A stretch of 59,182 nt of DNA from Candidatus Methylomirabilota bacterium (lineage in GTDB: Bacteria > Methylomirabilota > Methylomirabilia > Methylomirabilales > Methylomirabilaceae), in assembly GCA_028870115.1 (NCBI GenBank), contig JAGWQH010000078.1:1-59182 (forward strand), given 5' to 3'. The notes beneath the pieces were generated by a model. That model was not told the DNA's origin, did no database searches, and worked only from the letters and a program-made list of their open reading frames with translations. Of the stretch, positions 3,590 to 23,275 are shown piece by piece. The stretch's first letter is position 1. Every line of letters begins with the position of its first letter. Both the position numbers and the translations under genes were made by a program.

Positions 3590-5208
3590 AGTTCGAGGTG
3601 ATTGTTTTCCAGGATTGTGCCTTTCTGCAGCTCGAGATTGGCCAAGTCCTGATTATAGGTCGTAATCGCCTGGATCTCGCTGGCCTGGGCTGCGGCCAGG
3701 TCGCGCTGGAACGAGAGGACGTTGAAGGTCGTCGTGACACCGGCTTCGAGCCGTTTCTGCTCGACCCGGAGCTGCTCCTCTGCCAGCACCCGCGCCGCCC
3801 GGGTGGCCTCTACGCGGCGGACATCGGCCTCGATCCGACGGACCGCTTCCCGGACCTGAGAGATAATCTGACGCTTGAGATTCAGCAGGCTCACCCTTGC
3901 TTGATCGTCGGTGAGCTTCGCCTGAATGAATGCCGATCTGGCAGAGCGGTTGCCTAACGGATACGTCAGAACCAGAGCTGCCGACCATTGAGTAAAGTCG
4001 CCCGAGGTCAACCGATCCAGATCGCCGCCGGCGCTGCCGTTCAGGCCGTTGAGGCCGACATTACCCTGCAATTGGAGGCTGGGCAATAGCTGGTTCCTGG
4101 CAACCCTGAGGTTCAGGTCGCTGTTCTGAATGGTCAACTTTTGCGCAGCATACTCAGGCCGCTTCTCCAGAGCCTCCTGAATACTCGCTTCGGCATTCAC
4201 CGGCACCACCTCAAACGGTGGCTGGTTGGTCGGAAGAATGGTTCTGGCCCAGATGCGCTCGCCGTCGGGGAAGTTGATGATAAGCTTGAGCTGATCTTCG
4301 GCATCCTTGATGGCCTTCTCGGCCAGAATTACGTTCTGCACCTGGGCTGCAGCTTGGGCCTCCGCTTGTGTCACCTCGACCGGCGCCGCAACACCGGCCC
4401 GCACCCGGGCCTTGTTGAGATCCTCTAATTCCCTGGCCAGGCGCAGCGAGCGCTTCTGAACCTCAAGATTCTCGATGGCGAAGACCAGATTCCAGTAGGC
4501 GTTGTGCACATTGGTGATCACCTGATTGGCCTGCTGACGGAACTGCGTTACGGAAATCGCCTGATTATTCCTGGCGATCTTAATCGGCGCGGTATTCACA
4601 TCGACGCCGAAGTTCTTGAGGAGATTCTGGGTGATGCTGAGCGTGAGGAACGACTTGTAGGAGGGGTTGATCCCGTTAGGCGGCTGAGCAAAAAAGGAGT
4701 TGGTGTTAAATCGGTTATTGGTCATGCCCAACGTGTAGCTGGCGCCAAACGGCAACTGCTGGGTCAGCGAACTGTTCACATCTCGGTTTTCGATGGCGTT
4801 GACCTTAGCCCCCGCCAGTTGTGTCGCTGTAGGTGAGATGGTCCGATTCGCATCGAGTGTAAGGGAGAAGGTCGGGTCAAAGATCGCCTTCGCGATAATG
4901 ATGCCTTCCGCGGTGATCTTTGGGTTGTAGTCGGCAATGGCAATATCAAGGTTGTTCTTCAGAGCCAGCAGGACGGCCTCACGGAGGGAAAGGCGAAGTT
5001 CGTTTACCTCCGTCGGCTCGGTCTGGCCGAATTCCGCTTGAGGCATTGCCTGAACGACCAGGCGCCTCAAATCATCAGACAATTCTACGCGAATGGGCCT
5101 ACGAGGGGGGAAAAGACTGTCCGCCGCCCCCGCCGTCACAGCAGGCGGAACAGCCAGACACATCACCGACATCGTCCACAAACAGATCTTGCGCTGTAGC
5201 GCCGTCAT
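3586..5208 (-). CDS. TolC-family outer membrane efflux protein
   Basis: 540 residues with a Sec signal (MTALQRKICLWTMSVMCLAV...AGAADS) and two repeats of the outer-membrane efflux domain; typical patterns include LREAVLLALKNNLDIAIA, RPEYAAQK..IQNSDLNLRVARNQLLPSL and a C-terminal Ala/Arg/Glu-rich helical stretch (RVEATRAARVLAEEQLRVEQ). It forms the outer-membrane channel of the pump. The start is at 5208 rather than the longer frame from 5325 because a strong AAAGGAGG ribosome site sits just upstream and the extra 39 residues are Arg-rich and carry no signal peptide. It overlaps macA-like by 4 bp. Confidence 0.93.
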   Translation of the reverse strand: MTALQRKICLWTMSVMCLAVPPAVTAGAADSLFPPRRPIRVELSDDLRRLVVQAMPQAEFGQTEPTEVNELRLSLREAVLLALKNNLDIAIADYNPKITAEGIIIAKAIFDPTFSLTLDANRTISPTATQLAGAKVNAIENRDVNSSLTQQLPFGASYTLGMTNNRFNTNSFFAQPPNGINPSYKSFLTLSITQNLLKNFGVDVNTAPIKIARNNQAISVTQFRQQANQVITNVHNAYWNLVFAIENLEVQKRSLRLARELEDLNKARVRAGVAAPVEVTQAEAQAAAQVQNVILAEKAIKDAEDQLKLIINFPDGERIWARTILPTNQPPFEVVPVNAEASIQEALEKRPEYAAQKLTIQNSDLNLRVARNQLLPSLQLQGNVGLNGLNGSAGGDLDRLTSGDFTQWSAALVLTYPLGNRSARSAFIQAKLTDDQARVSLLNLKRQIISQVREAVRRIEADVRRVEATRAARVLAEEQLRVEQKRLEAGVTTTFNVLSFQRDLAAAQASEIQAITTYNQDLANLELQKGTILENNHLEL

Positions 5209-5236
5209 GCTACCTCCTTTTCCTCTGTACCCTGTC

Positions 5237-5665
5237 CTACGGCTTGCCCTCCGACGCCTTCGATTGAGAGGCGGCCGCTTCCTCCATCCGTCGCTCCTCG
5301 TCCCACCGTTTGACAAACGCCTCAAAGCGGGGGTGCTGATCGGGATTCAGGATCGAACGAATCCGCTGACGCGCCCGGTGTTTTATCTCTTCGAACTGCG
5401 GTTGAAGACGCCTGCGCAGAGCGAGAAACTCCTCGCGCGTCTCATCCAGCACCGCATTCAACGCGCCCATCTGTTCCGGTTGGAGTTGCACCGCCTCCGT
5501 CAGCTCTCTGACGTAGCGGTCCCGATTGAACTTCCCAGTCCACACAGCCTGGCGCGCCGGATCGACCCGGTGCAGGTAGGCCGATAAACTCAGGGCGCCG
5601 GCCGCTAACCCCAACAGAAAGACGATGAGAAAGGCGAGTCCAACCTTAGCGCGTGTCTCGATCAT
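5237..5665 (-). CDS. Spy/CpxP-like periplasmic sensor or chaperone
   Basis: About 142 residues: one N-terminal hydrophobic segment (VGLAFLIVFLLGLAAGALSL) followed by an all-helical periplasmic domain (LTEAVQLQPEQMGALNAVLDETREEF and a following Arg/Glu-rich helix), the layout of the Spy/CpxP/CnrX/ZraP superfamily that senses envelope stress or metals. It lies between an anti-sigma gene and tolC, so it may be a sensor for the ECF system, as CnrX is for CnrYH. The start is the ATG at 5665, which has AGGA eight bases upstream; an ATG at 5674 is the alternative. It overlaps the anti-sigma gene by 20 bp. Confidence 0.7.
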   Translation of the reverse strand: MIETRAKVGLAFLIVFLLGLAAGALSLSAYLHRVDPARQAVWTGKFNRDRYVRELTEAVQLQPEQMGALNAVLDETREEFLALRRRLQPQFEEIKHRARQRIRSILNPDQHPRFEAFVKRWDEERRMEEAAASQSKASEGKP

Positions 5666-7029: not shown

Positions 7030-8505
7030 TCAGTAGCGCTGGGCGAGGCCCTCTCGTTCAATACGGTGTGGCCGATAGGTTGCATTGGTCTCACCACAGG
7101 ACCTGGTGGTGGGAAAGAGTTTACCCGGGTTACACCGTAAAGAGCTGTCGAAGGCCGCCCGGACCATCCGCATCGCCTCGAGGTCCTCGGGACTGTACAT
7201 GAGAGGGATGAAGTCGATCTTCTCCAGCCCGATCCCATGCTCCCCCGTAATGCTCCCGCCCACAGAAAGACAGAGCCTCATAATCTCCGCGCCGGCTGCA
7301 AGGGCCCGCTGCAACTCGCCCTCCCTGCGGGAGTCGAAGCAGATCAGGGGGTGGAGGTTCCCGTCACCTGCGTGGAAAACGTTCGCAATCACAAACGCGT
7401 TGCGCTCCGCGATCGTCTCGACCTCCCTGAGTACCTGGGGGAGTTTGGTTCGAGGGACCACGCCATCCTGCAAGTAAAATTCGTGGGTGATCCGGCCCAC
7501 GGCCGCGACCGCCCCCTTCCGTCCTCTCCAGAGCAGGGCCCGCTCCTGCTCATCCCTGGCAATCCGAAGATCCAGGGCACCGTACCGGACACAAATCTGC
7601 TCAATCCGTTTGGCCTGGGCCTCGATCTCTGCGGCCGGCCCATCCAGCTCAATCAGCAGCACCGCGCCGGCGCCTTCAGGGTAGCCGATATGTAACCACT
7701 CCTCGAGCGCCCTGATGATGTGTCGATCCATCATCTCCATGGCCGAGGGGATAATGCCTGTGGCGATGATCTCCGACACCACCTTGCTGGCCTCGTCGAT
7801 AGCGCGAAAGGAGGCCAGTAGCGTCTTTACGGCCTCAGGCTGGCGGAGGAGGCGAACGGCTACCTTCGTCACAATCCCCAAGGTCCCTTCAGAGCCGGTA
7901 AAGAGACCGGTGAGGTCATAGCCTGGCCAGTCCAGCGTCTTACCGCCAAGCTGGACAATCTCTCCCGATGCCAGGACCAGCTCGAGTCCGAGGACATGCA
8001 TCGTCGTGGTCCCGTACTTCAGGCAGTGGGGGCCGCCGGCGTTCTCCGCTACGTTGCCGCCGATGCTGGAGGCGGCCTGGCTTGCCGGATCCGGAGCAAA
8101 ATAGTGATCGCGATCCTGAACCGCCTGGGTCAGGGCAATATTCACCAAGCCCGGCTCTACCACGGCGCGCTGATTCGCAAGATCGATCTCCAGTATCCGA
8201 TTCATGCGATTCAGCCCGATGATCACCCCGCCGGCAACAGCAATGGCGCCACCCGACAGCCCGGTCCCCGCCCCACGCGGCACGAAGGGAAGCTGCTCTC
8301 TGTCGCAGAGCCTCACCACCTCGACGACCTGCTCTGTGCTATCCGGAAGGACCACGACATCCGGCATGGCCTTCTCCAGATAGGTCATCCCATCGCACTC
8401 GTACACGGTCAACTCGCCCGAGTCGGCGATCACCCAGTCGCGGCCTACGATGGCCGCCAACTCTCGGATGATTCGCCGTTTATCCATGTCCTTCCAGCTC
8501 GTCAC
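7030..8505 (-). CDS. glcD: glycolate oxidase subunit GlcD-like FAD-linked oxidase
   Basis: 491 residues. FAD_binding_4 domain with the PRGAGTGLSGGAIA loop (about residues 95-108) and SSIGGNVAENAGGPHCLKYG, followed by the FAD-oxidase C-terminal domain with NVFHAGDGNLHPLI and the GSITGEHGIGLEK end motif. These define the GlcD / D-lactate dehydrogenase family, which oxidises 2-hydroxy acids. GTG start at 8505, directly after the glcE stop, with GGAGG eight bases upstream. Oxidation of glycolate normally needs GlcE and the Fe-S subunit GlcF; GlcE is adjacent but no GlcF is present here. A lactate or other 2-hydroxyacid substrate is possible. Confidence 0.88.
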   Translation of the reverse strand: MTSWKDMDKRRIIRELAAIVGRDWVIADSGELTVYECDGMTYLEKAMPDVVVLPDSTEQVVEVVRLCDREQLPFVPRGAGTGLSGGAIAVAGGVIIGLNRMNRILEIDLANQRAVVEPGLVNIALTQAVQDRDHYFAPDPASQAASSIGGNVAENAGGPHCLKYGTTTMHVLGLELVLASGEIVQLGGKTLDWPGYDLTGLFTGSEGTLGIVTKVAVRLLRQPEAVKTLLASFRAIDEASKVVSEIIATGIIPSAMEMMDRHIIRALEEWLHIGYPEGAGAVLLIELDGPAAEIEAQAKRIEQICVRYGALDLRIARDEQERALLWRGRKGAVAAVGRITHEFYLQDGVVPRTKLPQVLREVETIAERNAFVIANVFHAGDGNLHPLICFDSRREGELQRALAAGAEIMRLCLSVGGSITGEHGIGLEKIDFIPLMYSPEDLEAMRMVRAAFDSSLRCNPGKLFPTTRSCGETNATYRPHRIEREGLAQRY

Positions 8506-19824: not shown

Positions 19825-19971
19825 CTATTTCGAAATGTATTTCTCCGGCGACTGCTCGAAGGCCCGCTTGCAGCCCACGGCGCAGAAGTAGTATGTCACT
19901 CCTTGATAGACGGCTGTGGCCGCCGCCTGCTTCTCATCCACCATCATTTTGCATACGGGATCTTTGGCCAT
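19825..19971 (-). CDS. small YHS-domain protein (48 aa)
   Basis: A 48-residue frame, MAKDPVCKMMVDEKQ... to ...FEQSPEKYISK, behind a GGGGGAG ribosome site. It is a complete YHS motif: DPVCKM near the start and YYFCAVGCKRAF, with paired Cys suited to bind Cu or another soft metal. It is close to the N-terminal YHS domain of the CopA encoded in the same operon ([18 protein letters not shown]), so it could be a metallochaperone or a detached domain copy. It is the last gene of the csoR-ggr-copA operon, 11 bp after the stop of the PCYCGC protein. Confidence 0.82.
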   Translation of the reverse strand: MAKDPVCKMMVDEKQAAATAVYQGVTYYFCAVGCKRAFEQSPEKYISK

Positions 19972-19982
19972 CGCTCCCCCTC

Positions 19983-20429
19983 TCATCTTGCATATTTTCG
20001 GTCAATTGCCGCCTTAATCTCTGGAATTTTCTTCCCTTGCTTGTACATGGCATACGCATCCAGCGTAATGTCTTGGCACATCCTTCACGTATCCGCATGC
20101 CGATCTGTGTAACAATCCAGGTTGTTCTGATGGCCGGCCATTCTACCGCAACCGCAATAGCACGGCATCTGCTCGATCAGTTCCGGCACTTCCTTGGCGA
20201 TCCGATAGGTTTCTGCCAGCTTCCCGGTGAACAATGCCGGCGAGGGTGTAGCCGGCCGCGGACGTCTCGGGGCCGCCGAAGCCGCACTATCGCCTCCTGC
20301 TGCCCAACCGGCAACAGGCTTAACAAGGAGACCGAACAGGCCTCCGGCCAAGATCCTGAGAACCGATCGCCTGTCTGCGTGCATCGTACAGGTAGATCGG
20401 TCAGGCTGCTTCACTTCATCCTGTTTCAT
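19983..20429 (-). CDS. putative selenoprotein: PCYCGC-motif exported protein with in-frame TGA (Sec115)
   Basis: 148 codons if the TGA at 20087-20085 is read as selenocysteine; 114 if it is a stop. Strong ribosome site (GGGGGTG) before the ATG. Tat-type signal RRSVLRILAGGLFGLLV (about residues 20-36), core MPCYCGCGRMAGHQNNLDCY (Cys 90, 92, 94, 106), then DRHADT-TGA-RMCQDITLDAYAMYKQGK and KIPEIKAAIDRKYAR. As I recall it, family members read DxHxxxCxxC(L/Q)xI at this point followed by the same helical C-terminus, so TGA falls on the first Cys of CxxC. A SECIS-like hairpin follows. Known homologues have no firm function; the exported Cys cluster and copA context suggest metal or thiol redox chemistry. 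Alternative: a recent nonsense mutation or sequencing error. Confidence 0.72.
20045..20071 (-). promoter_or_regulatory. candidate bacterial SECIS hairpin downstream of the in-frame TGA
   Basis: Reading the minus strand after TGA: 13 nt, then ACAT, TACGC, a 5-nt loop TGGAT, GCGTA, a 4-nt bulge TGCC, ATGT. The lower 4 bp and upper 5 bp are fully paired, and the apical loop starts 22 nt after TGA with G in its first two bases. That fits the published general model of bacterial SECIS elements as I remember it (loop 16-37 nt after UGA, a G among the first two loop bases). Small hairpins also arise by chance, so this is support, not proof. Confidence 0.5.
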
Positions 20430-20494: not shown

Positions 20495-23236
20495 CTACGA
20501 GGACGCTGTCACGGCCATAGGCCGGAATCGTCGCAATCGGAGAGCGTTGCTGACCACGGTGACCGAAGAAAGCGCCATGGCTGCGCCGGCTAGGACCGGA
20601 CTCAGTAGTACCCCAAACAATGGGTACAGGACACCGGCGGCTACCGGGATCAGAACCACATTATAGGCAAACGCCCAAAACAGGTTCTGCTGGATGTTCC
20701 GCATCGTCAGTCGACTTAACTGCAGCGCTGTCACGACGCTTCGCAGGTCGCCCCCGATCAGCGTGATATCGGCCGCTTCCATCGCCACATCGGTCCCTGT
20801 CCCGATGGCGATCCCCACATCGGCCTGGGCCAGGGCGGGGGCGTCATTGATTCCATCGCCCACCATCGCCACCAGCTTCCCCTGCTCCTGAAGTCGTCGA
20901 ACCTCCAGCGCCTTATGCTCCGGCAGGACCTCGGCCAAAACCCGATCGATCCCGACCTGTCTGGCAATCGCCTCGGCCGTCCGACGAGTATCGCCGCTGA
21001 TCATCACTACCTCGATACCCAAGTGATGTAAGGCAGATACGGCCGACCGTGAATGCGGCTTCACGACGTCGGCCACTGCCACGAGGCCAAGAAGCCGACC
21101 ATCAGCGGCAACAAACATCGCCGTCTTGCCCTCCCCAGAAAGCATCAGGGCCTGCGAACCCATCTCGCCAAGCTCGATTCCACGCTCCTGCATCAGGGCT
21201 GCGTTCCCGAGGAGGACCTCCTGCCCCTCCACGACGGTCCCGATCCCATATCCCGGGATCGCCTTGAACTCCTGCGGCTCGGCGAGGGCAAGACCCTTCG
21301 CCTTGGCATGATCAATGATCGCCTGTCCAAGCGGATGCTCGGAGCCTTGTTCTGCTGAGGCAGCCAGCCAAAGTAGGGGGTTGGGGGTTGGGAGTTGGGA
21401 GTTGGGTTCCAAACTCGGAACTTGGAAGTCCGAACTCGGAACTATGTCCGTAACCGATGGTTGGCCGACGGTAAGCGTGCCGGTTTTATCGAAGATGATC
21501 ACGTTTACCTGATAGGCTCGTTCAAGGCTCTCGGCGTTCTTGATCAGGACACCGTGCTCCGCTCCCTTCCCGATTCCGACCATAATCGATGTAGGCGTTG
21601 CGAGGCCCAGGGCGCAGGGGCAGGCGATTACCAGCACCGCCACGAAGTTCGAGAGGGCCACGAGAAACGCCTGCTCTCCCCCAAACAGCAGCCAAACGAC
21701 GAAGGTTGCAGCCGCGATAACCAGGACGATCGGCACAAAGACCCCGGCGATCTTATCGACCAGCCGCTGGATGGGCGCCTTCGATCCCTGGGCCTGCTCA
21801 ACCAATCGGACGATCTGGGCGAGGACGGTCTCCCGTCCAACCCTGGTCGCCTCGAACTTGAAGCTACCCATCTTATTGACCGTGGCGCCGATCACCTGAT
21901 CGCCCGGCCCCTTCTCGACAGGCAGGCTCTCCCCGGTCAGCATCGACTCATCAAGCGCCGACCGGCCTTCACGGATGATCCCGTCTACCGGCACCTTCTC
22001 CCCAGGCCTGACCAACACCAGATCGCCAACCCTGACCTCCTCCACCGGGATGTCTTGCGTAAGGTCGTCACGGATCACCCGAGCGGTCTTGGCCCGAAGT
22101 CCTATAAGCTTCTTGATCGCCTCGGAGGTCCGACCCTTCGCCTTGGCCTCCAGCCACCTCCCCATGATGATCAGGGTCATCAGGATGGCGGCAGTGTCGT
22201 AGTAGGTCATCGCCTCCATCCCCGCTGGCGCGATGGCCGCAGGGAAGAAGGTAAGCGCCGCGCTGTACAGGTAGGCCGCATTCGTCCCGATCGAGACCAA
22301 GGTGTTCATGTCGGCGGTTCGATGCGTCAGGCTCATCCAGAACCCTCGATGGAACTGCCAACCGACCCAGAACTGTACCGGCGTGGTGAGGGCGAAGAGC
22401 ACGTAAGGGTTGGACAGCGGCGCCGGGGCCCATGCAAACCAATCCGGAAAGCTCCCAACTAAAACCGGGATACTCAGGGTCGCCCCGACCAGAAACCTGG
22501 TCCGAAGCAGGCGGATCTCTGTATCTCTCGACGATTTCTCCAGATCCGGCGTTGGAGCAGCGGCCATGTCCAGAACAGCATACCCGGCCGCTTCGATCGA
22601 ACTGCGCAGATCAGCGAGTCCAGTAAGCGAAGCGAGGTAGGTCACGGTTGCCCGCTCCGTGGCAAAGTTGACGGAGGCGGAGACTACCCCTGGAACTGCC
22701 TGCAATGCTTGCTCAATATGCGCTACGCATGACGCGCAGGACATCCCCCGGATCGGCAGGATGACCTCTGCTACGGCCGCCTCGTAACCGAGTCCCTGAA
22801 CCTCCTGAATAATCCGATCAATAGTCACCCGTTCGGGATCATACGAGATCGTCGCCTGTTGCGTCGCAAAGTTGACGCTGATTGCCTCAACGCCACTGAG
22901 TTTTGATAGGGTGCCTTCGATTCTGGCCACGCATGACGCGCACGTCATTCCTCTGATCGGGATCTCGACCACCCTCGTGTGCGCACTTCGTACCCCCGCT
23001 GTTGCGGAGGCAGACCCCGTACTGAAAATCCCCCCGTACCCCCCTTTAGTAAAGGGGGGGTGGGGGGATTTCGGGCTCTGCACCTCGCGCTGTTCAGTCA
23101 CATACTGCTCCGGCGATTTGTCAAACGCCTCCTTACAGGCCGCCGCGCAGAAATAGTAGTCTACCCCTTGATAGCGGCTCGTACCTGCGGCCTCCTCGGG
23201 AAGCACGTCCATGCCACAAATCGGATCTCTTGCCAT
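20495..23236 (-). CDS. copA: copper-type P1B ATPase CopA with N-terminal YHS domain and two HMA domains
   Basis: About 913 residues. Order: YHS domain (DPICGMDV...[12 protein letters not shown]), HMA1 ([12 protein letters not shown]), HMA2 ([12 protein letters not shown]), membrane helices, CPC metal site in [18 protein letters not shown], phosphorylation [31 protein letters not shown]. These mark a Cu(I)-exporting ATPase. ATG 23236 is preferred over GTG 23260 because it matches the start of the stand-alone YHS protein. Two segments look inserted: a palindrome-encoded stretch between YHS and HMA1 ([16 protein letters not shown]) and a heptamer-repeat-encoded loop after the DKTGTLT region ([20 protein letters not shown]). 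Both keep frame and sit in linkers. Confidence 0.95.
21376..21445. repeat. ten heptanucleotide units inside copA, G-rich
   Basis: Reading the plus strand in steps of seven: GGGGGTT twice, GGGAGTT twice, GGGTTCC, AAACTCG, GAACTTG, GAAGTCC, GAACTCG, GAACTAT. They encode the inserted loop of CopA in the opposite strand. The five G-runs could form a quadruplex on the non-mRNA strand. Confidence 0.85.
23026..23071. repeat. palindromic repeat in frame inside copA
   Basis: Outer arms AAATCCCCCC / GGGGGGATTT and inner CCCCCCTTTA / TAAAGGGGGG, same ends as the palindrome at 9876-9924, with the same TTTCGGG right flank. On the minus strand it encodes part of [16 protein letters not shown], a linker between the YHS and first HMA domain. 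Confidence 0.85.
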
Positions 23237-23275
23237 TGCTAATTTCTCGAACTTTGTCACTCGGTAGTGACCGGG

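Follow-up and report, generated by a model that had tools for sequence, protein, structure and literature searches.

Proteins of the OS_HP4 or CYCXC type (PF13798), which are hypothetical proteins with a UxxC motif, appear in the selenoprotein lists of two reviews (PMC9312934 and PMC13188914). Both reviews cite a 2007 study for it (Zhang and Gladyshev), and PMC13188914 points to the Olavius symbiont study of 2007. PMC13188914 also reports a MAG from the Methylomirabilota with 63 predicted selenoproteins, and it sets limits for a bacterial SECIS (bSECIS) element: a loop of 3-9 nt, a G in the first two loop positions, a spacing of 16-37 nt, at least 4 pairs and an energy of -7.5 kcal/mol or lower. 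Among the sequence families, NCBIfam NF041379 carries the name 'CYCXC family (seleno)protein' (OS_HP4). Our literature search on PCYCGC did not find a functional study.

The window, which is the whole 59,182-nucleotide stretch of Methylomirabilota DNA that was analyzed, contains a minus-strand ORF with an ATG at 20429, 114 codons, a TGA at 20087-20085, 33 additional codons and a second TGA at 19985-19983, which is the terminal stop of a 148-aa frame. The earlier note had given this arrangement, and its coordinates are exact. Plain gene calling produces a 114-aa product that ends at the first TGA. The read-through protein is MKQ...PCYCGCGRMAGHQNNLDCYTDRHADT-U-RMCQDITLDAYAMYKQGKKIPEIKAAIDRKYAR, and its Sec motif is U115-R-M-C118. 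From the sequence, we are highly confident that the gene encodes a selenocysteine-containing OS_HP4/CYCXC (PCYCGC) member of a Methylomirabilis-type bacterium. The host very likely belongs to the genus Candidatus Methylomirabilis because the closest named relatives are Candidatus Methylomirabilis genomes. The features of the locus are collected in Table 1. The other ORFs of the window, with extension past TGA judged by eye, included no convincing second selenoprotein.

Table 1. Features of the selenoprotein locus (window coordinates).
Feature	Position	Strand	Basis and remarks
OS_HP4 / CYCXC (PCYCGC) selenoprotein gene	19983..20429	-	148 aa, Sec115; translation with TGA = U, family profiles
Sec115 codon, in-frame TGA of the UxxC motif (U-R-M-C)	20085..20087	-	all Sec-clade relatives read have TGA; L019, L020, L023, L066 and L067 have Cys
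Putative N-terminal export signal, twin-arginine-like motif (ADRRSVLRILAGGLFGLLV)	20310..20429	-	sequence inspection
SECIS-like hairpin	20051..20070	-	5-bp core, loop UGGAU, 2 pairs across a bulged U; covariation, bSECIS model
copA-like P-type metal ATPase (YHS + 2 HMA + E1-E2 ATPase)	20495..23260	-	Pfam; ends 65 nt upstream of the selenoprotein gene
48-aa YHS-domain protein	19825..19971	-	Pfam PF04945; starts 11 nt downstream of the selenoprotein gene

The match to the known family is nearly complete. In the protein scan, NF041379 scored 122.9 bits against a curated cut-off of 90 bits (119.4 bits in the genome search), with residues 59-146 aligned to positions 2-89 of the 90-position profile (88 of 90) and with the TGA inside the alignment. 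Pfam PF13798 (PCYCGC) scored 61.4 bits, above its gathering cut-off of 25 bits, and the protein has both the PCYCGC motif and the UxxC motif listed for OS_HP4. The window protein thus resembles OS_HP4/CYCXC in its near-full profile match and in its Sec motif, and there is no essential difference; the window copy is flanked by copA and the YHS gene and carries a Tat-like signal. The earlier note had proposed a new or little-known selenoprotein family. That claim is not supported, because NF041379 is already named as a (seleno)protein and the OS_HP4 UxxC is in both lists; the gene adds a well-supported member to a known Sec family and does not found a new one. The PCYCGC lipoproteins of the Bacillales (PF13798), which include those from Priestia (L067) and Domibacillus (L023), have in common with the window protein the CYCGC, additional Cys/His ligands and the C-x-x-C site. 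However, they differ from it in having Cys for Sec, a longer insert and a lipoprotein-type N terminus.

The alignment has eight invariant positions, which are, in order, C, C, C, H, C, H, U/C and C. An AlphaFold model of the protein is all-helical and confident (pLDDT 91.6), and it places Sec115 immediately ahead of a long helix. Redox CxxC motifs are often located at such positions. Solved structures included no related protein by sequence (best E 0.54) and none by fold at E <= 0.001. The likeliest role is that of an exported protein that binds soft metals or carries out thiol/selenol redox reactions, because of the neighboring genes, the invariant Cys, His and Sec residues and the position of Sec115 in the model. 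A metal role by itself has about an even chance.

The copper-transport neighbor described in the earlier note is a copA-like ATPase by Pfam and is on the same strand, and the same copA order is common to the Methylomirabilis loci L009-L012, L055 and L060-L065. A motif test of the more distant loci did not detect copA/YHS neighbors outside the genus, which weakens the copper link at the level of the whole family. This absence would favor another explanation, namely, that the selenoprotein serves in general thiol redox or as an assembly factor rather than in copper handling; the neighbors with an AhpC/TSA-type thioredoxin fold in L014 and L020 and the location of the UxxC, where a helix is predicted to begin, point the same way. 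Set against it are the CopA and YHS neighbors in Methylomirabilis, the MerF, CopZ-type zinc-binding and HMA proteins that are neighbors in L014/L015, and the location of the Cys relatives in copper or heavy-metal islands. The Burkholderia gene (L066), for example, is accompanied by an RND permease, a copper-binding protein and DsbD, and the Priestia gene (L067) by a heavy-metal P-type ATPase, ArsR regulators and a cation diffusion facilitator. We give the general redox explanation somewhat less than an even chance of being correct.

The TGA itself is conserved in the relatives. The family was matched in 70 of the 95 genomes of the phylum, and among the matches listed, all but one short fragment have an in-frame TGA. 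Codons read directly at the UxxC position were TGA in 40 of 43 loci in a first set, the other three being TGC in a Nitrospinaceae (L019), TGT in a Nitrospirae (L020) and TGC in Domibacillus (L023). In a second set, all 40 genome stretches had TGA; some loci are duplicated between the two collections, and the distinct sequences total about 70. Two plasmid relatives also have Cys at the Sec site: Burkholderia L066 has TGT, and the annotated Priestia L067 protein reads DDHGTKCGVC (the L067 entry among the second-set codon readings came from a spurious frame and was disregarded). Two points of the earlier note, that homologs would have Cys at the TGA position and that family-like protein continues past the TGA, agree with what was found. 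NF041379 aligns across the TGA and the frame is kept in about 70 distinct genomes, and conservation across so many genomes excludes chance for the read-through frame. As a separate observation, the Priestia plasmid has two PCYCGC genes (4773-5297 and 7031-7519), and some of the conserved Cys residues are missing from the second one (PCYCGSG, KSRIC).

The genome from which the window comes (2.8 Mb in 122 contigs, completeness rating 99.99%) encodes all four of the Sec genes that the earlier note had proposed to look for. The tRNA-Sec gene (selC) scored 65.9 bits and is also called tRNA-SeC by ARAGORN; selB, selA and selD scored 385.8, 596 and 396 bits, respectively. The selD gene (L033, G000:C66:1534-2460, minus strand) has one in-frame TGA inside the profile match, and so SelD is probably a selenoprotein itself. 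Across the phylum, tRNA-Sec was above the cut-off in 79 of the 95 genomes. Both selC and selB were above the cut-off in the genomes of L014 and L018, and neither was in the genomes of L019, L020 and L023, which have the Cys versions. There are a few exceptions. The gene is present with its TGA on a Tectomicrobia contig (L017) whose 2.3-Mb genome has no selB or selC above the cut-off, which may reflect an incomplete assembly or a misplaced contig. Likewise, the TGA gene occurs without selC above the cut-off in a few genomes of the Methylomirabilota that have completeness ratings of 95-100% (e.g., G052, G055 and G087); these may also be incomplete assemblies or may result from the stricter filters that were used in the phylum-wide selC search.

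A hairpin follows the TGA, as the earlier note had indicated, and it does have a GG-containing 5-nt loop (UGGAU). Its '9 paired bases' are not quite accurate; the supported structure has 5 uninterrupted pairs, which in Methylomirabilis are separated by a bulged U from 2 additional pairs. With the T of the TGA as position 1, the core pairs are positions 21-25 with 31-35, and the spacing from the TGA to the apical loop is 22 nt. Pairs C25-G31, G24-C32 and C23-G33 around the loop UGGAN are present in all 32 distinct Sec-clade sequences. Below them, pair 22-34 is G-U, A-U, G-C or U-A, pair 21-35 is G-C, U-A or C-G, and pair 20-36 is A-U or U-A, except in the Methylomirabilis-like set, which has a U.U mismatch or a bulge there. 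Three hairpin pairs have double-sided changes. In the Sec clade, 94.3% of the cells are paired compared with 82.8% after shuffling, and the covariation score is 0.329 compared with 0.133 after shuffling, with 0 of 500 shuffles reaching the observed score (the shuffles disregard the relatedness of the sequences, and so this count is no probability). Sliding the partner strand lowers both the pairing and the covariation score.

Several of the changes that keep the pairs alter the residues encoded by both arms of the stem (Ile-Thr...Tyr, Glu-Ala...Ser, Ile-Ser...Arg and Ile-Ala...Gln), a pattern that selection on the protein alone would have difficulty explaining. Synonymous positions hardly vary either. 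Within the hairpin, Leu is CTG in 34 of 34 cases and Ile is ATT in 15 of 16, compared with 76 of 191 and 26 of 155 elsewhere in the same genes. The folding energy of single sequences is ordinary (z = 0.12 and -0.32), and for this reason covariation was used as the evidence for the hairpin. The predicted energy of the 41-nt stretch is -8.1 kcal/mol, to which a second small hairpin contributes. The element lies within all of the bSECIS limits of PMC13188914, with a 5-nt NGGNN loop, a 22-nt spacing, at least 5 pairs and an energy below -7.5 kcal/mol; nothing falls outside that model, and its peculiarities are a U bulge in Methylomirabilis and, in a second clade described below, a shift in register. 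An Rfam search of the window gave no match.

These results bear on two other ways of reading the TGA. A general code change or a suppressor could cause the UGA to be decoded as Cys or Trp, with no SECIS-directed insertion of Sec, and the Cys at this site in relatives would fit such decoding. However, TGA terminates many ORFs of the window, including this gene, the genome has the complete Sec machinery, and the hairpin is kept in the TGA versions while its core is missing from the three Cys versions compared; we therefore regard it as very improbable. Alternatively, the TGA could be a normal stop codon or result from a sequencing error, and the 33 codons that follow could be a fossil tail. This idea agrees with the 114-aa annotation that the gene would otherwise receive, but it is hardly credible given a downstream frame kept at the protein level in about 70 distinct genomes, with TGA at the same codon and a covarying hairpin.

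We conclude that the TGA most probably encodes selenocysteine, as the earlier note had proposed, given the approximately 70 relatives with TGA at the same codon, the Cys versions, the sel genes and the covarying hairpin. Presumably, SelB with Sec-tRNA(Sec) would bind the hairpin just past the UGA, selenocysteine would be inserted at residue 115, and the ribosome would then continue to the second UGA and stop there. The 148-aa product, which is probably exported by way of its Tat-like signal, is predicted to fold into a small all-helical domain, in which the conserved ligands are the three CYCGC cysteines, the LDCY cysteine, two His and the Sec115-x-x-Cys118 pair. Its probable function, alongside the CopA pump and the YHS protein, is the binding of a soft metal (for example, copper) or thiol/selenol redox chemistry. 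The locus thus provides strong covariation evidence for a selenoprotein whose gene is cut short at the UGA by plain gene calling, and in one genus it ties this selenoprotein to a copper pump.

A more distant group of relatives also has the TGA. Thirty-five distinct sequences, many from more distant families of the Methylomirabilota, have it in HAAT-U-xxC-x-D-[IV]-T-R-D-V (loci L068-L087 and L093-L107, except L067, with 100-base flanks around the matches). Five of these proteins that were scanned scored 60-67 bits with NF041379, below its cut-off, and the two that were scanned with the PCYCGC Pfam profile well exceeded its cut-off. Being below the curated family threshold, such TGA relatives may be wrongly annotated as truncated genes. 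The register of their hairpin is shifted, with positions 18-24 paired with 30-36 and a loop of CGUGA or CGGGA. A 14-sequence subset has 96.9% of its cells paired; because the subset was picked for variety, its pair counts are illustrative only. Our literature search, limited to open-licence papers and so weak evidence, did not find Sec in this clade, which may be new in detail. Tentatively, and at somewhat below even odds, we suggest that the Methylomirabilota have a second Sec-PCYCGC subfamily with this motif, below the OS_HP4 cut-off and with a shifted SECIS helix and a CG[U/G]GA loop, and that both forms are exported Sec/Cys metal-binding proteins for copper handling. In one second-clade sequence, ACG/GAC is replaced by ACC/GAG, so that a G-C pair becomes C-G. 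Another member, L086, has a further in-frame TGA and a broken stem, and this gene may be decaying.
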